Assembly: GCA_903862425.1 (NCBI GenBank)
Contig: CAIOYC010000014.1
Location: forward strand, 1-64,000
Length of the DNA: 64,000 nt
Source of the DNA: an uncultured Caulobacterales bacterium
GTDB lineage: Bacteria; Pseudomonadota; Alphaproteobacteria; Caulobacterales; Caulobacteraceae
Direction of reading: 5' to 3'
Positions 19,774 to 49,532 of this stretch are shown piece by piece (position 1 is the stretch's first letter; each line of letters starts with the position of its first letter). Below the pieces are notes generated by a model. The model saw only the letters and a list, made by a program, of their open reading frames with translations. It had not been told where the DNA came from and searched no databases. A program made the position numbers and the translations under genes.

Positions 19774-20709
19774 TCAGCCGGCGAACGGCCGGTCGTGAAT
19801 CCATTGCGAGAATAGCCACTTCTCGCCCCGGGTCGGCGGCAGGCCTGCATGCAGGCTCATCGGATCGGGTCGCCCTGTCGGATCGACGTTGGCGAAATAG
19901 AGTGCGCCGCCCTTGGCCGGCCGGGCACTCAGATCGACGCGGCTGAACCAGGTCTGGCCGCCTTCGAAATCGTCGTTCAGGTAGATCAGGAAGGTGGCGA
20001 TGCGGTCACCGTCATAACCGCTGGGGCGTCCCTCGCGCTGCAGATAGTCCACGTGCGGCCGCAATTCCTGGCCGGTGTCGTAGTGGAAGATCTGCGGCGG
20101 CTCCATGGCGCCGACCGGCAAGCTGAGCATTGCCGAGATACGCGCGCGGACCAGCGCCACCACGCAGTCCGCATCAAATATCGTGAAGACGAAGTCGCTA
20201 TTGGTGCGCTCGCGGGTGAGGCGAGGCGCAGCGCCATACCCCTCGACCATCATGGCCGGCCGAAGCTTGTCCTTCCCCAGCCCGACCAGCCAGTCGCAGA
20301 CCGCCGAAGGGATGAACGCATCGACCTGACGCACGCGGGGGCTGTCGCAGAGGCTGCGCCGCGCGGGCGGAGTCAACCAGGCCTCCAGGTCGATCGCGCT
20401 GCGGCGCATAGCCCAGTCGTCCTTGTCCGGCGCCAGGCATTCGAGCTGTCCCCGCGCGGACGCCGAGCCCAACTGCGCCGCCCGTTGAAGCAGATCAAGC
20501 GCGCGCGGCCAGTCCTGCAGCATCCAGGCGCCTGACGCCGTAAGCGTTGCGAGGAGGTTTGTCGCCTCCGCGTCGCCGGCATCGGCCGCGCGATGCAAAC
20601 ACGTCAGGCCGGAGTCGATATCGCGTACGACGCCCTCGCCGAGCAGCAAGGCGCGGGCTTCGGAGACGGCGGCGAAGGGTTGGGCTGGGCTCATTTTGCG
20701 CAACACCAT
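19774..20709 (-). CDS. 2OG-Fe(II) oxygenase (prolyl 4-hydroxylase type) with N-terminal Sel1-like repeats
   Basis: 311 residues. Residues about 10-95 hold Sel1/TPR-like helices (LLGEGVVRD, LHRAADAGDAEATNLLA, LLQRAAQLGSASA). Residues 130-310 form the P4H-like double-stranded beta-helix: HxD iron ligands H219 and D221 in RPHVDYL, distal His287 in SLHAGLPP, and Lys297 in GEKWLF to bind 2-oxoglutarate. GGQTWF and KGGALYFANVD are typical. It probably hydroxylates a peptide or protein. ATG 20709 has AAGGCGG upstream; a second in-frame ATG is at 20694. It is divergent, across 79 bp, from a TPR-sulfotransferase gene. Confidence 0.86.
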   Translation of the reverse strand: MVLRKMSPAQPFAAVSEARALLLGEGVVRDIDSGLTCLHRAADAGDAEATNLLATLTASGAWMLQDWPRALDLLQRAAQLGSASARGQLECLAPDKDDWAMRRSAIDLEAWLTPPARRSLCDSPRVRQVDAFIPSAVCDWLVGLGKDKLRPAMMVEGYGAAPRLTRERTNSDFVFTIFDADCVVALVRARISAMLSLPVGAMEPPQIFHYDTGQELRPHVDYLQREGRPSGYDGDRIATFLIYLNDDFEGGQTWFSRVDLSARPAKGGALYFANVDPTGRPDPMSLHAGLPPTRGEKWLFSQWIHDRPFAG

Positions 20710-20788
20710 TACCCGCCTTGCCGGCCCATATGCTAGACCCATGGGCGTGGGTGGGAGAACTTGCCCGCGCCTTGGAGTGACGTGTTTC

Positions 20789-22444
20789 ATGACGGATATC
20801 GGCGCGACCCTGTTTGGTCAGACCCCCGGCGACCGGCTGAATGCCGTGATGCAGGCCCTCCAGGGCAACGACACCCCACGCGCCATCGCCCTAGCCGAGG
20901 AAGGTTTGGCTGCCGGACAGGAACACGTGCTGTTTCTGAATCTCTCGGCCTACCGCTTGGAGGAAGCGGGCGATCTCAACGGCGCGCTGGCGCAACTACG
21001 CCGAGCGTTGGTCCTGGCGCCGAACGACATCATGATCCTGACCGCCACGGGCCGTACCTTGTCCCAGTTGGGTCGCGACACCGAGGCGCTGACCTGTTTT
21101 GACGCCGCCGTGTCCAATGAGCCCAGGCACGCCCCCGCACACCATGGACGAGGCCTGTCGCAGACCATGCTCGGCCAGACCGACGACGGCCGTCGCAGCC
21201 ACATGCGTGCTGCCGACCTCGACCCCAACTATCCAGACCCGCTGGGCTCCCTGGCCGATATCGCCCTGCGCGACGGTAAGACGGATGTAGCGCGCACACT
21301 GGCCGAAAGGGCTCTGGCGCTACAACCCGATCAGCCCGCAGCGACCATGGTGCTCGCCGCCATCGAGGTGAAGGCGGGCCAGCGGGATGAGGCCCTGCAA
21401 CGTGCGCGCCGTCTGCTCGCCACCCCGCTGTCGCCTCTCCACCGCGCCGCCGCGGAGCAGCTGGTCGCCGAACAACTCGACGCTATGGACGAGCCGGTCG
21501 AGGCTTTCGAGGCCATGACTCGCGCCAGCGGCCTGCTGCGGCAGGTCTATAGCCGGCAATACGACTCTCCCGAGGTAGAGGGCGCCATCGCCATGACAAG
21601 GCGTATGCACGCCTGGTTCAGCAGCACGTCGAAGGCCGATTGGGGCGCCGCATCGGGGGGCGACGGTACGGCGCCGGACGGCAGGGGCCATGTCTTCCTG
21701 GTCGGCTTCGTCCGCTCCGGTACGACGCTTCTGGAGCAGGTGTTGGCCAGCAACCCCGCGGTGACGGCGCTGGAGGAGCAGGCGACCTTGCGCGCCATCA
21801 CCTCCCCCTGGTTCGACGACGATGCGGGGCTGGAACGGCTGCGTACGATGGAGGCCGCCGAGGCGGATCGTCTGCGGGCGGACTATTGGCGTCGGGTGGG
21901 TGAGTTCGGCATCGACCCTAAGGACAAGGTGTTCGTGGACAAGGCGCCGCTCTCTACCCTGTGGCTGCCCATGGTGGCCAAGCTGTTCCCGCAAGCGCGC
22001 GTGATCCTGGCCATCCGCGATCCGCGCGACGTGGTGCTGAGCTCGTTCCGTCACCGCTTCCTGATCAACGGCCTGACCTGGCCCTTCACCGATCTCGTAG
22101 AAACGGCGAAGTTCTACGATGGACTGATGTCCCTCGCGGACCTTTATCGCGATATCTTGCCGACCCCGATATACCAGCACCGGCACGAGGACCTGATCGA
22201 GGACTTCGACGCGGAGGTAGGGCGGATCTGCGACTTCCTCGGCCTGGAATGGACCGATGCCATGCGCGACTTTGCCGAGACCGCGAAAAGACGTGACGTG
22301 CGAACGCCCAGCGCCGAGCAAGTGCGCCGCGGCCTCTATCGCGAGGGCATGGGCCGCTGGCGCCGCTATGGGCCGGGCGTCGAACCGATCCTACCGATCC
22401 TTGCGCCATGGGTGGAGCGATACGGCTACGACGCGGAAGCCTAG
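20789..22444 (+). CDS. TPR-sulfotransferase, copy 1
   Basis: 551 residues. Residues 10-255 are about six TPR-like helical pairs (EEAGDLNGALAQLRRAL, LSQLGRDTEALTCFDAAV, DGKTDVARTLAERAL). Residues 300-551 form a sulfotransferase domain: the PAPS 5'-phosphosulfate loop FLVGFVRSGTTL at 303-314, and the 3'-phosphate motif RDPRDVVLSSF at 410-420. The fold resembles protein-tyrosine sulfotransferases, and TPR fusion suggests a polypeptide substrate, but the acceptor is unknown. No signal peptide, so it is cytosolic. ATG 20789 follows GGAGTGA. The gene shares CTAG with the convergent beta-hydroxylase gene. Confidence 0.88.
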   Translation: MTDIGATLFGQTPGDRLNAVMQALQGNDTPRAIALAEEGLAAGQEHVLFLNLSAYRLEEAGDLNGALAQLRRALVLAPNDIMILTATGRTLSQLGRDTEALTCFDAAVSNEPRHAPAHHGRGLSQTMLGQTDDGRRSHMRAADLDPNYPDPLGSLADIALRDGKTDVARTLAERALALQPDQPAATMVLAAIEVKAGQRDEALQRARRLLATPLSPLHRAAAEQLVAEQLDAMDEPVEAFEAMTRASGLLRQVYSRQYDSPEVEGAIAMTRRMHAWFSSTSKADWGAASGGDGTAPDGRGHVFLVGFVRSGTTLLEQVLASNPAVTALEEQATLRAITSPWFDDDAGLERLRTMEAAEADRLRADYWRRVGEFGIDPKDKVFVDKAPLSTLWLPMVAKLFPQARVILAIRDPRDVVLSSFRHRFLINGLTWPFTDLVETAKFYDGLMSLADLYRDILPTPIYQHRHEDLIEDFDAEVGRICDFLGLEWTDAMRDFAETAKRRDVRTPSAEQVRRGLYREGMGRWRRYGPGVEPILPILAPWVERYGYDAEA

Positions 22445-23622
22445 AGCCCCTGCCCCACTGGGGCGACGCCGTTGAAGTCGTCGTACAAGCCGCTGACCTT
22501 GGCGATCATCTCGCGCTCCCACGCAGACAGGCGCGGGTTCCAGACATCGAACAGCAGGATGATGCGGAGGTGGTCGCTGTCGTTGAACGCTTCGTGATCG
22601 ATGGTGTCATCGAACACCCATGCCTGCCCATCGGTATAGATTCGCATCTCATTGCCGACCCGGAACCGACAGCCCTCCGGCACGAGGAGCGGCAGGTGAC
22701 AGACCAGCCGAGTGTTGGAGACGCCGGTGTGCGGGGGAATGTGCGTGTGCGCCGCCAGAGCCGAGAACATGGCGGACGGCGAGCGGTTCGGGACCTGCGG
22801 CTGGGGGATTTGCGCCAGTGTCTCCAGCGTTCGGGGGCAAAGTTTGGCGTGCTCCTCCACCCTCACCCCATCGCGCAGCAGGTGATAGGCGCCCCAGCGC
22901 GGCGACCGGTTCAAAGCCGCCCATTGGTCCAGGGGCGATGAGTCCTTGTAGTCGATATAAGGCTCGAACTCGCCCCGGTCCGCTTGCAGTACAGCGGCGA
23001 GTTCGGCCTTGATGGCATCTGACGCCGCCTCCAGCGTCTCAAGCCAGGGAAACTCATCCCGTTCCCAGAACTCGATGACGGGCAGGCCAGGGTAGAAGTA
23101 GCCGAGCGGCTCCTGCTGGTAGCGACGCCGGCGGCCCAGGGTGAAGTCGATGAAGGCGTCGATCCGGCGCGCATCGGCGCTGTCCAACTGAGCCGTCCCG
23201 ACACCATCGCGCAGATAGGCGGCCAGTTCGTCGCCATAGGCCCGGTTGATCTGGCGACCGTGGTCGAGGGCCTGGCGCGTGGGGCCGTCGAGCTGGTGAT
23301 CGGGCGGCGCCTGCAGGATGGCTTGGCCATAGGCGGGCGCCGCCTCGCGAAGCCGGCCCGCGCGCTCTAGCAGCGAAGCGCGCATCAACAGGGCGAGAAA
23401 GGCGCGCGGATCGAGTCGAAGAGCGCCGTCTGTGGCGGCGAGGGCACCCTCGGTATCACCGAGCGCGCGCCGCGCGGCGGCTAGGTTCAGCCAGTCGGTC
23501 AGCGCCGCATCCGCCCTTTCGGTCAGGGCGCCCCAATGAACCGCCGCCGTCTGGAAGTCGCGGGCGGCCATGGCCTTGCGAGCCATCTCCGCATGCGGCG
23601 GCGTGTGCCGAACGTCGCTCAT
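22441..23622 (-). CDS. TPR-fused aspartyl/asparaginyl beta-hydroxylase-like oxygenase
   Basis: 393 residues. Residues 10-110 are TPR-like (DWLNLAAARRALGDTEGALAATDGALRLDP). Residues 180-370 match the Asp/Asn beta-hydroxylase domain: IPPHTGVSNTRLVCHLPL with iron ligand His298, RVG, and FDDTIDHEAFNDSD with His343 and a following Arg353 for 2-oxoglutarate. Like other members of the family, it shows only the two His ligands. Expected activity is hydroxylation of an Asp or Asn side chain in a polypeptide, in the cytosol. It lies 86 bp downstream of the TonB receptor gene on the same strand, separated by a terminator-like hairpin. Confidence 0.87.
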   Translation of the reverse strand: MSDVRHTPPHAEMARKAMAARDFQTAAVHWGALTERADAALTDWLNLAAARRALGDTEGALAATDGALRLDPRAFLALLMRASLLERAGRLREAAPAYGQAILQAPPDHQLDGPTRQALDHGRQINRAYGDELAAYLRDGVGTAQLDSADARRIDAFIDFTLGRRRRYQQEPLGYFYPGLPVIEFWERDEFPWLETLEAASDAIKAELAAVLQADRGEFEPYIDYKDSSPLDQWAALNRSPRWGAYHLLRDGVRVEEHAKLCPRTLETLAQIPQPQVPNRSPSAMFSALAAHTHIPPHTGVSNTRLVCHLPLLVPEGCRFRVGNEMRIYTDGQAWVFDDTIDHEAFNDSDHLRIILLFDVWNPRLSAWEREMIAKVSGLYDDFNGVAPVGQGL

Positions 23623-23637
23623 GAACTCACCACACAG

Positions 23638-23667
23638 AAAAACGGGCGGCGACTGATGTCGCCGCCC
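23638..23667 (-). terminator. Rho-independent terminator of the TonB receptor gene
   Basis: On the minus strand: 10-bp perfect stem GGGCGGCGAC / GTCGCCGCCC, loop ATCA, then G and TTTTT. It lies about 40 bp after the receptor stop codon and directly before the start of the beta-hydroxylase gene, so read-through would be limited and may act as an attenuator for that gene. Confidence 0.8.
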
Positions 23668-23708
23668 GCCTGATTTTCTGTCCTTGGGACCGATAAGTCG
23701 AGCGTGAC

Positions 23709-26700
23709 TTAGAAGTCGAGGGTCAGACCAACGAACATCGTCCGGCCCAGGCTGTCATAGACGCCGGGGAAGGTGTTGCCGTTGCCGGTCGGCGGGCCCG
23801 CCGCCGGGAAGTCGTTGGAGTCGAGCAGCGGCGGGTCGCTGTCCAGGATATTGTTCACACCCGCACGCAAGGTGAGGTTCGGCTTGACCTTCCAAGTGGC
23901 GGAAAGGTCGAAGTAGTTATGGATGCCGATGGTCTCGTCGGCAGTATCCGTCAGGCCTGAGGGGTGGTTAGCAAGCAGGCTGTTGCCGGTCGCAGGCAGG
24001 AACTTGCCAGTGGTGCTGTCGAAAGCGCCGGCAGTGCCTTGGTTGCCGTCGTACTTGACCGCGCCGACTACACGCCAATCGAGCGAGATGGTCACCGGCC
24101 ACTTCGGCGTCTCATAGGTGAAGCGCGTGCGGCTCTTCCAGTGCGGCAGAGGCGTGCCGCAGGTCGTGCCGTAAAGGCCCGCGCAATCATAGGTGCCGAG
24201 GCCGCTGGCGGGATTGACGACGTAGCGGCTGGTATAGGTGCCGACGAACGCGATGTTCAGGTTGCCCCAACGCGGCAGACCCCAGTCTTCCGGCATGAAG
24301 CGATAGTTGGCCGTGAAGTCGAAACCGTCGGTCTTGGTATAGCCGGTGTTGGTTTCCGTGGAGATCACGTAGCCGGCGTTGCCGAACAGGCCGCCCGACG
24401 AGTCGCGGTGGATCTGGCCACAGTAACTTGTGACACCCGCCAAGCATTCGGTGACAACAACGTTAGGCGCAACGGTACCGATCGCATTGTCCACTTCGAT
24501 GCTGAAGTAGTCGATGCTGGCGGTAAAGCGGCGCAGGAAGCCGAAGGTCGGCGTGAAGACAAACCCGGCTGTATAGGTGTCGGCCTGTTCCGGCTTCAGG
24601 TTCAGGTTGCCGCCGCCCAGGAACGAGCACTGGGCTGCCGGGCACTGGCTGATGGAGACCGTACCGGCTGCAGTCTTGGTCGTGCTCAGCGAATTGACGA
24701 ACGCCTGGGGCGTCAAGCCCGCAGCGGTCGCGGCGCTGGCGAAGGTCGCCAGACAGGCCGACGAGATTGAACTGGCGACGAAGGTGCCGGAGCAAGGATC
24801 GCTGCCGCTATACAGGCCGATCGATTGAGTGGCGTAGAGTTCGTCAACGGCCGGGGCCCGGACAGCGCGGTTGTAGCCGGCGCGGAAGCGGATATCCCGG
24901 GTGATCGACCAGTCCAGTTCAGCCTTGTAGGTGCTGGTGGTGCCGGCGGTCGAATAGTCCGAGAAGCGGTAGCCGATATCCAGGGACAGGTCGCGGAAGA
25001 ACGGCTTGTCGTTGATCAACGGCATCCGCACTTCGCCGAACAGTTCATAGACGTCGAAGGAGCCTCCGTTCGGCTGGGTGGAACCGCCCTGGCCGGACAG
25101 ATCGCCCGACTGGAATTCGCTATCCACATCGAGCTTCAGGGTCTCGCGACGGTATTCCGTGCCAAGGGCGATGCCGAAGCCGTTGCTGGCCCAGGGCGAC
25201 TTCAGGCCGTATTGGCCGAGGTCGCCGGTCACCGAAAAGTCCGCGATGGCTTCGGTGGTCGAGCCGCTCTTGAAGCCGGGGGTCAAGACGTAGTTCAGCG
25301 CTTGTTGGGTGAGGCCGCCATATTGGAAGATGTTGAGCGGCACACAGTTGCTGGTGTCCGTCATACACTTGCCGGTCGTGGGATCGACCAGCAGGGCGTT
25401 CTGGATCTTCCGTACCGAGGTGTCGTTCAGATAGTGCTCGTTATAGATCGAGGCGCCGTACTGCAGGTAACCGTCATAGCTCCAGCCCGGAGCGAACTCG
25501 CCACGGAGGCCAAGGTCGATCTTGTAGTTGGTGTGACGCAGATCGTCCTGGCGGTTCGAGCCAACGAAACGCAGGCCGGACTGGACGTTGGCGAGAGCAG
25601 ACGTGCCCGCCATGTTGCCGCAGAGGTCCTGACGCTGGGTCCGACCGTCCGGACCGATCGTGTCGCCGATCAGCGGGTTGTTACAGTTGACCTGCATGTA
25701 GCTGGTGCCGTTCGAACCGGTGCCGGCGAATAGACCCGACGGGGCGATCTGGGCGACCGTGTGATCGTCCGCGAACATGAAGTTCGAGTAGATCTCAGCC
25801 TTTTCGTTGAAGCGGTAGTGGGCGTCGAAGCCAGCCGTGTAGCGGTCTTCCGGACGCTGGAAATAGTTCAGCGGACCGTAGTTGTATGAAGGTACGGCAG
25901 TGGTGACGTAGGTCTTCGATCCATCGGGGTTCAGGTGCAATTGCTTGCCGGAAGCGATCGCGCCGTAGGAGCCCGGATAGGCCGTGCCGGATTGGCCGGG
26001 GATGAACCGCCCATAGGCCGAGTTTGAGGAGCCGGCGCAGGTATGGGAGTCATAGACGTAGGAATTGGCGTTATGGCCGTTCGTCGCCGCGATGGAGCAG
26101 GCCGAGACGTCGAACTTGTCCTGCGTGATGGCCTGCAGGTTCCGATAGGTGGCGTAAGCGGTGATGTTACCCTTATCGTCCGGGCTGTTCAGACCGATGA
26201 TAGCGGACACGTCGTAGGACAGTGTCGCCGTGTAGTCGCTCGGCGCCATCGGGAAGTTGGAGATTCCCTTCACACCCTGCAGTGAACGAGCGGCATCATT
26301 GCTGTTCTGGTGGTTCAGGAATCCATATTGGGCGTCGATCTGCGCGCCCTGGAAATTCTTCTTCATTATGAAGTTGACGACGCCGGCCACGGCGTCGGCG
26401 CCGTACACGGCCGAGGCGCCGCCGGTCACCACGTCAACCCGCTCGACCAGGGCCGATGGGATGTTGTTCAGGTCGGCCACCGGAAGGAGCGGGTCGCCCG
26501 GCATCAGGCGCTTGCCGTCGATCAGCACCAGTGTGCGCCGTGGCCCGAGGGACCGCAGATCGACAGTAGCCGTACCGGTCGAGCCGTTCGAGACGTTGGA
26601 CTGCTGGCCCGCGGTAATCTGCGGCAGGGCGTTCAGCAGGTTTTCGATGTTGGCCGCGCCGGAAAGCTTGATTTCCTGGTCGGTCACCACCGTCAGCGGG

Positions 26701-26885
26701 CTGACCGAGGTCAGGTTCGGCTGGCGGATGCGGGTGCCCGTGACCGTCACTTCCTGAGGCACGGAGGCGTCGGCCGTCGGCGCGCCCGTCGTGGTGGTTT
26801 GCGCCGCCGCCACGCCATGAATGGCGAGAACCGAAGCGCCAGCGAAGATCGTCGACGCCATGAGGCGTGCCCGTCGCGAAATCAT
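23709..26885 (-). CDS. TonB-dependent outer membrane receptor
   Basis: 1058 residues. Signal peptide with RRAR start and AIHGVAAAQ cleavage region; a TonB box-like VPQEVTVTGTRI; plug domain with PLTVVTDQEI, LRSLGPRRTLVLIDGKRL and GGASAVYGADAVAGVVNFIMKK; a 22-strand barrel; and a C-terminal aromatic (GLTLDF) as expected for BAM insertion. There is no N-terminal signalling extension, so no sigma/anti-sigma partner is expected. It is large for the family and has many Asn/Ser-rich loops, consistent with peptide or glycan import. ATG 26885 has AAGGGG upstream. It is flanked on both sides by TPR-fused modification enzymes, which suggests a shared substrate. Confidence 0.92.
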   Translation of the reverse strand: MISRRARLMASTIFAGASVLAIHGVAAAQTTTTGAPTADASVPQEVTVTGTRIRQPNLTSVSPLTVVTDQEIKLSGAANIENLLNALPQITAGQQSNVSNGSTGTATVDLRSLGPRRTLVLIDGKRLMPGDPLLPVADLNNIPSALVERVDVVTGGASAVYGADAVAGVVNFIMKKNFQGAQIDAQYGFLNHQNSNDAARSLQGVKGISNFPMAPSDYTATLSYDVSAIIGLNSPDDKGNITAYATYRNLQAITQDKFDVSACSIAATNGHNANSYVYDSHTCAGSSNSAYGRFIPGQSGTAYPGSYGAIASGKQLHLNPDGSKTYVTTAVPSYNYGPLNYFQRPEDRYTAGFDAHYRFNEKAEIYSNFMFADDHTVAQIAPSGLFAGTGSNGTSYMQVNCNNPLIGDTIGPDGRTQRQDLCGNMAGTSALANVQSGLRFVGSNRQDDLRHTNYKIDLGLRGEFAPGWSYDGYLQYGASIYNEHYLNDTSVRKIQNALLVDPTTGKCMTDTSNCVPLNIFQYGGLTQQALNYVLTPGFKSGSTTEAIADFSVTGDLGQYGLKSPWASNGFGIALGTEYRRETLKLDVDSEFQSGDLSGQGGSTQPNGGSFDVYELFGEVRMPLINDKPFFRDLSLDIGYRFSDYSTAGTTSTYKAELDWSITRDIRFRAGYNRAVRAPAVDELYATQSIGLYSGSDPCSGTFVASSISSACLATFASAATAAGLTPQAFVNSLSTTKTAAGTVSISQCPAAQCSFLGGGNLNLKPEQADTYTAGFVFTPTFGFLRRFTASIDYFSIEVDNAIGTVAPNVVVTECLAGVTSYCGQIHRDSSGGLFGNAGYVISTETNTGYTKTDGFDFTANYRFMPEDWGLPRWGNLNIAFVGTYTSRYVVNPASGLGTYDCAGLYGTTCGTPLPHWKSRTRFTYETPKWPVTISLDWRVVGAVKYDGNQGTAGAFDSTTGKFLPATGNSLLANHPSGLTDTADETIGIHNYFDLSATWKVKPNLTLRAGVNNILDSDPPLLDSNDFPAAGPPTGNGNTFPGVYDSLGRTMFVGLTLDF

Positions 26886-27170
26886 ATTAACCCCTTGCCC
26901 TGTGGAAGCTGACCGGTCGTTGCCGCGCTTCCCTCGATGCGGTGCCCAGGCGATGCCCGCTGAACGCGCACCCCTGATCGACATCAGGGTTGGCCGGTCT
27001 GTAAGATCAGGTCAACATTGGTTTTATTTTCCGCACGCATTTGGGCAGGACCGTAGCGAAAACGTTACAGTCCCTTCATGTACGCCTAACATAAAGGCGC
27101 CGATCCCGAGTGACGTGGGAGGCTACGTCAGCCTAAAGCTGGCTTCGCCTACATGACGGGAGTTGGACGC

Positions 27171-28811
27171 GTGACAGGATCGACAGCCTCGGCGGCGGAA
27201 GCGGCGCGTTGGGTCGCAGACGTGGAAGGCGCTGCGCGCGCGGGCGATTTTCGCAAGGCGTCAGTCTGGGCGGATCGGGCGCTATCCCTTGGGATCAGCC
27301 ATCCGCGACTCTATCAAATCAAAGGGATAGCGCTCGACCAAGCCGGCCGCTTGGACGAATCGCTGATTGAATTCGGTCGGGCCTACGCCCTCGATACGTC
27401 CGACCCGGGCATCGCCAACGCCTTTGCCGCCGGCCTGAGACGAGCCCGTCGCTTCGTAGAAGCAGTGGCGGTCTTGCGCGGCGAAGTCGAACAGAGGCCC
27501 GACATAGTCGAAAGCTGGCTCAATCTCGGCGGGGCGTTGACGGGCGCCGGACGGCTCGACGAAGCGCGCATCGCCTACGAGCGCGCGGCCATTTTGCGGC
27601 CGGATATGGGCGAAGCGCTTGGCAAGCTGGCGGTGCTCGCCCTGCATCGTGGCGACTCGGTGGCGGGGCGCGACATGGCCGAGCGGGCCCTCGCGATCAA
27701 CCCTGACGACCCTGAGGCCCGCCGCGCGCGGATCGAAGCGACGATCGAGGCGAAGCAGCCGACCGAGGCTGAAGCGCTGGCGCGCAGCTGGCTCGCCTCG
27801 TCCAAAATAGGCGCCAATGGTCGGATGCAGGCCTATGGACTTCTGGGCGACGCGCTCGACCAGCAAGGCCGCTATGCCGAGGCCTTCACCGCCTATGGAG
27901 AGAGCAAGGCCGCCTTCGCAGCGACGAACGGGGCTGCGTTCCGAGGCCTCGATTCTACGCCCTTGGCGACATCGCTGGAGGGCATGCGCCGCGAGTTCGA
28001 CGCCCTTCCCGCCGCCTCGCCCTCTACAGCTTCTGTGATGGGCGAATCCGATGCGCCCCGTGCTCACGTCTTCCTGATGGGCTTCATGCGATCTGGGACG
28101 ACCCTGCTCGAACAGGCGCTGTCGCTGCACCCGGACGTGGTCACGCTGGAGGAGACCGAGGCGATGGCGAACGCTGGGGCGGTGCTGCTGGGCAAGCCGG
28201 GCGGGTTGCAGCAGATCGCGGCCATGGACGCGCCCACCGTGGCGCGGGCGCGCGCGCTGTACTTCCAGGCCGTGCGCGATGCGGGCGTGGAGCCCGCCGG
28301 CAAGGTGCTGATCGACAAGCTGCCCTTCAACGGCATCAAACTGCCGCTGATCGCCAAGCTCTTTCCCGACGCGCGCATCCTGTTCGCCATCCGTGACCCG
28401 CGCGACGTGGTGCTGAGTTGCTTTCAGAAGCGCCTGCAGCCGAACAGCTTCTCCTATGAGATGCGCACGCTGGAGGGCGCGGCGCGATTCTACGCCAGCT
28501 ATATGCACCTCGTGCAGGCCTATCGCGCCCGCCTGCCCCTCGCCATCCTGGATCACGGGCACGAGGCGCTGCTCGCGGACTTCGAGGGTTCGGCGCGGGA
28601 GGCCTGCGACTTCATCGGCCTCGACTTCCGCCCGCAGATGATCGCCTTCCATACAACCGCCCGGGACGGGAAGGTGATGTCCCAGACCTCGCGCCAGTTG
28701 CGCGAAGGGTTGAACACCAAGGGGCTTGGCCGCTGGCGCAAGTATGCAGCTGAAATGGCCCCGATATTGCCAATCCTCGAACCCTGGATCCGGGCTTATG
28801 GCTACGATTGA
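27171..28811 (+). CDS. TPR-sulfotransferase, copy 2
   Basis: 546 residues if GTG 27171 is used (GGGAG 8 bases upstream); ATG 27153 is six codons earlier but lacks a ribosome site. Residues 10-250 are TPR repeats (IKGIALDQAGRLDESLIEF, NLGGALTGAGRLDEARIAYERA). The sulfotransferase domain has the PAPS loop FLMGFMRSGTTLLEQ at about 301-315 and RDPRDVVLSCF at about 408-418. Domain order and motifs match copy 1, but the sequences have clearly diverged, so different acceptors are plausible. It is divergent from the TonB receptor across 285 bp that must contain both promoters. Confidence 0.87.
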   Translation: MTGSTASAAEAARWVADVEGAARAGDFRKASVWADRALSLGISHPRLYQIKGIALDQAGRLDESLIEFGRAYALDTSDPGIANAFAAGLRRARRFVEAVAVLRGEVEQRPDIVESWLNLGGALTGAGRLDEARIAYERAAILRPDMGEALGKLAVLALHRGDSVAGRDMAERALAINPDDPEARRARIEATIEAKQPTEAEALARSWLASSKIGANGRMQAYGLLGDALDQQGRYAEAFTAYGESKAAFAATNGAAFRGLDSTPLATSLEGMRREFDALPAASPSTASVMGESDAPRAHVFLMGFMRSGTTLLEQALSLHPDVVTLEETEAMANAGAVLLGKPGGLQQIAAMDAPTVARARALYFQAVRDAGVEPAGKVLIDKLPFNGIKLPLIAKLFPDARILFAIRDPRDVVLSCFQKRLQPNSFSYEMRTLEGAARFYASYMHLVQAYRARLPLAILDHGHEALLADFEGSAREACDFIGLDFRPQMIAFHTTARDGKVMSQTSRQLREGLNTKGLGRWRKYAAEMAPILPILEPWIRAYGYD

Positions 28812-43470: not shown

Positions 43471-43493
43471 CCCCGCGGAGGCGGGTACCCGGG
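43463..43493. repeat. Dispersed repeat, left arm of inverted pair at the mtaB start
   Basis: 31 bases matching the reverse complement of 43529-43559 at 28 of 31 positions (core CGCTCATCCCCGCG.AGGC). The arm covers the first codons of mtaB as annotated and its presumed ribosome site. Elements with this core are found many times in Caulobacterales genomes. Confidence 0.8.
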
Positions 43494-43528
43494 TTTGGGC
43501 GGGGCTGCTGGGGTCAGAAATAAACAAG

Positions 43529-43559
43529 CCTGGGTCCCCGCCTTCGCGGGGATGAGCGG
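43529..43559. repeat. Dispersed repeat, right arm of inverted pair
   Basis: Partner of 43463-43493, separated by 35 bp. The arm ends 17 bp from the SDR stop codon, so the pair fills almost all of the SDR-mtaB intergenic space and could fold as a large hairpin in the shared transcript. Confidence 0.8.
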
Positions 43560-43576
43560 AAATTTGAATGCCGAGA

Positions 43577-44446
43577 TCATCCGCCACCGGAAGACTCCGC
43601 GACGAACGCCTTGAACGCATCGGCATAGTCCGGATGCCAGCGCGAGAGAGCGGGACGGTTTTCGGTGATGTCGCCGGCAGCCCAGGCGATGCGCTTGTGA
43701 TCGAGCGCGGTGGGCGTCTCGTTGTCGGGGCACAGGATATAGAAATCGCCCGCAGCGATGCGCTCGAAGGCGAAGTCCACGGTCTGTTCGGCCGTCCACG
43801 CGCCGTCGGGCTTTTCGGTGCGGCCGTTCGCGGTCAGGCCGGTCCAGACAAAGCCGGGGATCAGCAGGTGCGCGCTGACCTTGGAGCCCGGCGTCGTGCG
43901 AAGGGTGTGGGCCAGCCCCTCGGTCAGGGCCTTCACCGCCGCCTTGGACACGTTATAGGCGGTGTCGCCGGGCGGGGTGGTGATGCCTTGTTTGGAGCCG
44001 GTATTGACGATCAGAGCCGGCTGGCCGGCGGCGATCATGGTAGGGGCGAAGGCCTGCACGCCGTTCAGCACGCCGAGGAAGTTCACCCCTAGCACCCGGT
44101 CCCACGCCTCGCGCGGCGCCAGGGCATCGCCGCCCGAACCGACCCCGGCATTGTTCATCAGGATACCGACGGATTCGCCGGAGCGGGCGATCACGCCGCG
44201 CAGATCGTTAAAAGCGGCAGGGTCGGAGACGTCGAGGGTCCAGGTGGTGGCCACACCGCCATTGGCGAATTCGATCGCCTCCAGCGCCCGGTCCAGCCCG
44301 TCGCCGTCACGATCGATCAGATGCAGGTTCATGCCGAGACCGGCCAGCTTGTGGGCGGCGGCTAGGCCGATGCCCGAGGCGGCGCCGGTGATCACGGCGA
44401 CCCGACCGGGCTTCAGGGCGGGATGATCGATCAAGGCGGAACTCAC
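43577..44446 (-). CDS. Short-chain dehydrogenase/reductase
   Basis: 289 residues, classical SDR. NAD(P)-binding TGAASGIG at 20-27, NNAG at 97-100, catalytic Ser150, Tyr163 and Lys167 (YNVSK). The substrate is unknown. The C-terminal region is unusually rich in Trp/Asp (DHKRIAWAAGDITENRPALSRW). GTG 44446 is chosen because GTGA overlaps the dapF stop, which indicates translational coupling. It sits between dapF and mtaB, so it rides on a housekeeping operon. Confidence 0.88.
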   Translation of the reverse strand: MSSALIDHPALKPGRVAVITGAASGIGLAAAHKLAGLGMNLHLIDRDGDGLDRALEAIEFANGGVATTWTLDVSDPAAFNDLRGVIARSGESVGILMNNAGVGSGGDALAPREAWDRVLGVNFLGVLNGVQAFAPTMIAAGQPALIVNTGSKQGITTPPGDTAYNVSKAAVKALTEGLAHTLRTTPGSKVSAHLLIPGFVWTGLTANGRTEKPDGAWTAEQTVDFAFERIAAGDFYILCPDNETPTALDHKRIAWAAGDITENRPALSRWHPDYADAFKAFVAESSGGG

Positions 44447-49364: not shown

Positions 49365-49389
49365 TCCTTCGACAAGCTCAGGATGAGGG
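49365..49389. repeat. Dispersed repeat, left arm (25-bp inverted pair)
   Basis: Exact reverse complement of 49437-49461 over 25 bases (core CTTCGACAAGCTCAGGATGA), 47 bp apart. The pair lies between the phosphoesterase start and priA and could fold into a long hairpin. This core is frequent in Caulobacterales and sphingomonad genomes. Confidence 0.85.
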
Positions 49390-49436
49390 TTTCCGGCGGC
49401 GCAGCACCTATATCTTCGGCGGGCCGATCGAAGTCC

Positions 49437-49461
49437 CCCTCATCCTGAGCTTGTCGAAGGA
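49437..49461. repeat. Dispersed repeat, right arm
   Basis: Partner of 49365-49389. It ends about 70 bp before the priA start, so the promoters of both divergent genes must lie in or next to the repeat pair. Confidence 0.85.
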
Positions 49462-49532
49462 TGGGCGGCGGTAGCGACATTGCCTCCACCGCGCGGACGT
49501 GAACAAAGAAGGCCCATGTCAGGATCGGCGAA

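Follow-up and report, generated by a model that had tools for sequence, protein, structure and literature searches.

A modular cassette of TPR- and Sel1-fused oxygenases and sulfotransferases around a TonB-dependent receptor in an uncultured Caulobacterales bacterium

The locus and its enzymes

A TonB-dependent receptor (TBDR) is surrounded by putative protein-modifying enzymes on contig CAIOYC010000014.1 of an uncultured Caulobacterales bacterium, whose genome measures 3.69 Mb. The window, meaning the whole stretch of DNA analyzed here, spans 64,000 nucleotides. Open reading frame (ORF) and Pfam analysis of the window places five genes within 9 kb (Table 1): a prolyl-4-hydroxylase-type oxygenase (P4H), a sulfotransferase (ST1), an aspartyl/asparaginyl beta-hydroxylase-like oxygenase (AspH), the TBDR, and a second sulfotransferase (ST2). 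All five confirm a first-pass annotation that had reported four modifying enzymes and one large TBDR in this interval. A hydrophobic signal stretch is absent from all four enzymes but present in the TBDR and in F4, a neighboring secreted protein. Together, the enzymes very probably form a cassette of cytosolic protein modifiers that is functionally tied to the receptor.

The cluster is more than a chance grouping. It holds the single AspH with tetratricopeptide repeats (TPRs) in the genome (E<=1e-20), both TPR-sulfotransferases (E<=1e-40), and the single TBDR of its subfamily (E<=1e-150), in a genome with a total of 34 TBDR barrels. Two more copies of P4H are found elsewhere in the genome (at C9).

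P4H matches PF13640 at 50 bits, and its closest solved structures are algal and bacillar prolyl 4-hydroxylases (E about 1e-24). Its sequence contains the H-x-D ... H ... K pattern (PHVDYL ... SLHAG ... GEKW), including the Lys that binds 2-oxoglutarate (2OG). The Sel1 stretch scores 25.5 bits, below the cut-off of 30.7, yet solved Sel1 proteins are matched at 1e-8. Translation of P4H possibly starts at a later ATG, at 20709. AspH scores 145 bits for Asp_Arg_Hydrox. Its TPRs lie near or below the Pfam cut-off but are plain in the fold model (pLDDT 91). The closest solved relative is human AspH (7e-24), whose catalytic domain reaches a TM-score of 0.84 to the fold model. The PF05118 fold follows an N-terminal TPR and contains a two-His metal site (H297 and H342) and a 2OG-binding Arg (R352), all of them invariant among 18 relatives.

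Sulfotransfer_3 is matched at 110 bits in ST1 and 104 bits in ST2. In the fold model of ST1 (pLDDT 90), the N-terminal coil is closest to OGT and to designed TPR coils, and the catalytic domain to the tyrosylprotein sulfotransferases (TPSTs), with a TM-score of 0.64-0.72 depending on the target. By sequence, TPST2 is matched at 5e-10. Within this TPST-like fold, 20 relatives show complete or almost complete conservation of the P-loop for 3'-phosphoadenosine 5'-phosphosulfate (PAPS), of the catalytic Glu that occupies the base position of TPST, and of the Lys and Arg motifs. The closest solved relatives of the cassette are AspH, P4H, TPST, and the TPRs of OGT; its nearest relatives are therefore protein-modifying enzymes.

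The repeats that the first-pass annotation had seen on the enzymes are borne out by the solved-protein matches for Sel1 and by the fold model for AspH. Its argument that a shared repeat type makes all four enzymes bind the same polypeptide is weak: P4H carries Sel1 repeats, and ST1 and AspH share no more than generic similarity in their TPRs. A shared TPR type was accordingly rejected as an argument for a shared substrate.

Table 1. Genes of the cassette and its flanking secreted proteins (window coordinates)
Feature	Position	Strand	Characteristics
S1, small secreted protein, 103 aa	19458..19769	(+)	signal peptide, Pro/Ala/Thr-rich linker, two-Cys core
Sel1-P4H, 2OG-Fe(II) oxygenase of prolyl-4-hydroxylase type	19774..20790	(-)	2OG-FeII_Oxy_3 (PF13640) + Sel1 stretch
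ST1, TPR + Sulfotransfer_3	20789..22444	(+)	OGT-like TPR coil joined to tyrosylprotein-sulfotransferase-like domain
TPR-AspH, aspartyl/asparaginyl beta-hydroxylase-like oxygenase	22441..23622	(-)	Asp_Arg_Hydrox + TPRs
TonB-dependent receptor (TBDR), 1058 aa, signal peptide	23709..26885	(-)	Plug + TonB barrel
ST2, second TPR + Sulfotransfer_3 protein	27153..28811	(+)	Sulfotransfer_3 + TPRs
F4, secreted Cys-containing protein, 184 aa	28870..29424	(+)	weak VasI-like match; recurrent beside the TBDR subfamily

When all gaps of the window cluster were searched for precursor peptides, S1 was the sole conserved small ORF. It falls in no Pfam family; both Cys of its core are invariant, and the core also contains a G-[ST]-R motif. 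The V-T-G-[ST]-R stretch of this core resembles VTGTRI, a motif on the TonB-box side of the window TBDR. F4 usually lies divergent upstream of the TBDR subfamily, Sphingomonas included. Elsewhere in the window, the predicted N-termini of two ORFs (about 49380-49489 and 43480-43620) read through stretches of the ILRQAQDE/LILSLSKDG- and HPREGGDP/RVPASAGMSG-type, which have the appearance of dispersed repeats and not of coding DNA.

Modular neighborhoods of the receptor subfamily

The subfamily of the window TBDR is common to Alpha-, Beta-, and Gammaproteobacteria. Its neighborhoods were compared using local BLAST searches and hidden Markov models built from fetched loci, with bit scores that favor the host family. 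Additionally, a GTDB scan with the AspH alignment gave 79 loci, which are the best-scoring relatives rather than a random sample and include some genomes that overlap the family set. Linkage is defined as a subfamily TBDR of >900 bits within 6 kb. In the GTDB scan, such a TBDR accompanies 48/66 AspH genes with full flanks, and the same 66 genes have a sulfotransferase (26), a PF13759 oxygenase (17), PiuC (13), or P4H (11) nearby. The genera represented include Nevskia, Stagnimonas, Povalibacter, Steroidobacter, Nitrospirillum, Sphingomonas, Massilia, Duganella, and Roseateles, together with Hyphomonadaceae and others. Within the host family, a subfamily TBDR is near 24/50 AspH genes, 19/31 sulfotransferase genes, and 5/5 TPR-PF13759 genes, where the AspH and sulfotransferase values are undercounts in cases of a broken TBDR frame (e.g., L031). 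The chance expectation for a nearby subfamily TBDR is about 0.4%, calculated from one such TBDR in 3.69 Mb.

The complete five-part set is also found in G012, from the same genus, and in G069, G075, G089, G104, and G114 of genus g21. Thus, co-occurrence across related genomes, which the first-pass annotation had proposed as a check, is not rare, and the functional group is conserved. The set is nevertheless a modular pool around the receptor and not a fixed four-enzyme pathway. Custom profiles applied to 120 Caulobacteraceae-type loci define a pool around the TBDR subfamily that consists of AspH, the sulfotransferase, P4H, a TPR-PF13759 oxygenase, a PiuC-family dioxygenase, a sulfotransferase-like protein that matches no Pfam family, and F4, flanked by OppBC and SppA. 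The PiuC-family dioxygenase in the cassettes of relatives exceeds the cut-off of NCBIfam NF003974. Across 72 TBDRs with flanks, the adjacent enzyme set changes at least 17 times, and Massilia and Duganella have loci reduced to two genes, TBDR and AspH. P4H was rejected as a core member because its homologues mostly stand alone, and it is treated as facultative. As for the hydroxylation and sulfation of a polypeptide proposed in the first-pass annotation, the chemistry fits the likeness to AspH, P4H, TPST, and OGT-like TPRs, but a dedicated four-enzyme route does not fit the modular pool. Its observation is confirmed and its interpretation partly supported.

Several components extend the earlier description, namely S1 and F4 in the window and OppABC, SppA, the TPR-PF13759 oxygenase, and the PiuC-type dioxygenase in relatives. 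TPR-sulfotransferase pairs of the same type also flank a receptor of another TBDR family, TonB-Xanth-Caul (TIGR01782; L143:4385-9299, L144:9152-15810). A recurrent cassette protein of ~340 aa, ST_B (L087:4131-5081, L071:11975-12997), has no Pfam or NCBIfam match and contains a P-loop-like GSTLLSR motif, which would make it possibly an undescribed sulfotransferase-like family. A Hyphomonadaceae cassette (L205: 13673-14653, 18172-18789, 18786-19424) encodes a Sulfotransfer_2 protein as well as additional AspH-type oxygenases that lack TPRs. In Paucibacter (L171:12382-14138), the TBDR-AspH pair is followed by TonB-motor genes of the ExbB and ExbD types.

Receptor, cargo, or secreted protein as the target

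In the proposed mechanism, the four cytosolic enzymes would grip a polypeptide, three of them via TPR coils and one via its Sel1 repeat. Pro and Asp/Asn side chains of an exported protein would be hydroxylated before it leaves the cytosol, where Tyr, or a freshly made hydroxyl, on the same protein would be sulfated. The likeliest target would be the neighboring TBDR; modification would then be required for its function, just as the Caulobacter TBDR CciT depends on the dioxygenase CciO. We infer catalysis, a protein rather than a small-molecule substrate, the sequence of the reactions, and the role of the TBDR as target. That the TBDR itself is directly modified is a credible proposal, although we place it somewhat short of probable. 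The overall pattern favors the receptor over its cargo or a small secreted protein.

Part of this pattern comes from glycan loci. In genus g14, the same TBDR subfamily occurs in loci with GH2, GH43, and GH127 and with a Cupin_8 oxygenase (L230-L237). The Cupin_8 gene is 187-343 bp from the subfamily TBDR in 16 of the 17 best cases, and the genomes of this genus have 2-8 Cupin_8 (JmjC-type) genes each. AspH and g14-type Cupin_8 avoid each other among 149 genomes, with 4 shared against 19.7 expected in a comparison that does not control for phylogeny. Cupin_8 could stand in for AspH because Cupin_8 includes FIH-like Asn/Asp hydroxylases. The function of Cupin_8-TBDR pairs in glycan loci seems undescribed. 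With AspH or sulfotransferase genes at oligopeptide-uptake loci and Cupin_8 at glycan loci, the modifiers are most simply assigned to the receptor, irrespective of its cargo. In g22, the region upstream of one subfamily TBDR encodes a GH2 galactosidase as well as a tryptophan halogenase (PF04820, 623 bits; L238:2697-4232).

The cargo itself could be the substrate. A peptide, or a peptide-like iron carrier, would enter via the TBDR and OppABC and then be hydroxylated or sulfated in the cytosol for use, release, or detoxification. We regard this as unlikely, although the neighborhoods provide reasons to consider it. TBDR-AspH and TBDR-sulfotransferase loci adjoin OppABC and the SppA peptidase, and oligopeptide-transport genes border the TBDR-AspH pair in several lineages: OppB and OppC, sometimes with OppA and OppD, do so in Nevskia/Stagnimonas and Caulobacteraceae loci, and Stagnimonas has OppA-B-C-D downstream. 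This suggests that the TBDR handles peptides in those lineages, and an S49 peptidase is also among the neighbors. Transformation of an imported substrate has been proposed for CciO homologues (PMC12004947). However, the tie between enzymes and TBDR holds without clear Opp genes in many Duganella and Sphingomonas loci, and the TBDR subfamily retains its oxygenase neighbor in glycan loci. Moreover, OGT-like TPR arms joined to TPST and AspH folds fit polypeptide chains better than short peptides.

A rather unlikely candidate for the substrate is S1 or F4, which would be hydroxylated and sulfated in the cytosol, exported, and active at the TBDR, where it might bind metal as a partner of the receptor or serve as a co-receptor. 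S1 homologues occur in 24 fetched loci of the three proteobacterial classes, mostly beside TBDR, AspH, sulfotransferase, P4H, or Oxy5 genes, and the signal peptide, Pro-rich linker, and two-Cys core would suit such a role, as would the secretion, Cys content, and recurrence of F4. Yet S1 is missing from most cassettes, and its about 115 copies in 68/149 family genomes are mostly located away from them. There is also no invariant D/N between its cysteines, and F4 is found in an enzyme-free Opp-TBDR locus (L243, L244). A direct biochemical link may also be lacking altogether if insertion-prone TBDR loci merely collect accessory enzymes and co-localization reflects shared mobility or regulation. 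The frequent changes in enzyme sets and the several TPR-AspH genes that stand alone are compatible with this. Additionally, the cassette genes (19774-28811) have a slightly lower GC content at third codon positions (GC3), 0.80-0.82 versus about 0.86-0.91 in most flanking genes, which is compatible with acquisition or lower expression. We consider this explanation quite improbable, given that the same few enzyme types, mostly fused to TPR or Sel1, recur around one TBDR subfamily in three classes, whereas random cargo would be mixed. The specific need of CciT for CciO (PMC12004947) also argues against it.

Several observations weigh against a modified receptor as the purpose of the cassette. In the host family, 26/50 AspH genes have no subfamily TBDR nearby; the AspH family is therefore wider than the cassette and has other jobs or substrates. 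P4H is mostly unlinked, with most homologues away from any subfamily TBDR, and some subfamily TBDRs have no known modifier nearby (L241-L249). A comparison of 72 AspH-linked with 22 enzyme-free TBDRs gave no alignment column of Asp, Asn, Tyr, Pro, or Cys that discriminates the two groups, and it is therefore only by inference that the receptor is named as substrate. In Caulobacter, CciT protein is still produced without CciO, and the three models of the authors are substrate synthesis, inhibitor removal, and substrate oxidation, none of which involves CciT modification (PMC12004947). As for the alignment comparison, some of the 22 TBDRs counted as enzyme-free could be served by Cupin_8 in place of AspH.

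A doubtful generalization is that TBDRs as a class undergo cytosolic hydroxylation, sulfation, and perhaps halogenation (by the neighboring tryptophan halogenases), carried out by receptor-specific, often TPR-guided enzymes and needed for transport. If true, such modification would also account for the need of CciT for CciO and for the association of PiuC-type enzymes with TBDRs. It would likewise add protein sulfation and Asp/Asn hydroxylation to the biology of the bacterial outer membrane.

Comparison with known systems

The individual enzymes resemble proteins from other settings. AspH shares an N-terminal TPR, the oxygenase fold, and conserved metal and 2OG ligands with human AspH. However, the window protein is cytosolic, lacks a transmembrane anchor, and has no known EGF-like substrate, and its domain arrangement differs (root-mean-square deviation about 14 over both domains). 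The sulfotransferases combine a catalytic domain like that of TPST1/2 with a TPR coil like those of OGT and designed TPR proteins, whereas TPRs are absent from TPST and OGT is a sugar transferase. The literature searched contains no description of this TPR-sulfotransferase combination next to a TBDR. A search that covered part of the literature likewise found nothing on the whole set, or on a TBDR with a sulfotransferase, AspH, halogenase, or cupin, which agrees with the first-pass statement that no such system was known.

Bacterial precedents exist for single aspects of the cassette. In RaxX-RaxST, the sulfated-peptide system of Xanthomonas, a bacterial sulfotransferase acts on a polypeptide as well. 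RaxST has RaxX as its precursor and RaxABC as the associated exporter, and no exporter or RaxX-like precursor was seen in the window cluster. A cluster for ribosomally synthesized and post-translationally modified peptides (RiPPs) would have a dedicated precursor peptide co-conserved with the enzymes; the only conserved gap ORF is S1, which occurs in 24 loci but is missing from most cassettes and common outside them. For exported surface proteins, the HMW1C-type N-glycosyltransferase (NGT) is a known example of modification in the cytosol ahead of export (PMC5303269).

The closest described case is CciT-CciO, with its kin PiuA-PiuC and Fiu-YbiX, which are linked to cefiderocol uptake. In these systems, a TBDR is encoded beside a cytosolic Fe(II)/2OG dioxygenase, and the two are co-conserved across Proteobacteria. 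CciT strictly and specifically requires CciO, which belongs to the cytosolic 2OG/Fe(II) dioxygenases of PiuC/YbiX type (PMC12004947). The cassette shows the same adjacency and co-conservation of a 2OG-Fe(II) dioxygenase and a TBDR. In contrast, the window TBDR belongs to another subfamily, and its partners are AspH, P4H, and two sulfotransferases in modular sets. The window encodes no dioxygenase of the PiuC/YbiX (PRK05467) family, which appears only in the cassettes of relatives. No E. coli-like Fur box (<=3 mismatches) was found in the window, a search pattern from which a divergent host box could differ. The cassette resembles CciT-CciO in that cytosolic partners accompany a receptor, and its arrangement is related to that pair without being the same. 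For the reported but unexplained dependence of CciT on a cytosolic dioxygenase, one directly testable answer would be that the receptor, or an exported partner, is modified. The cassette would represent the same receptor-dioxygenase partnership, extended by enzymes for which the nearest solved structures are those of protein modifiers.

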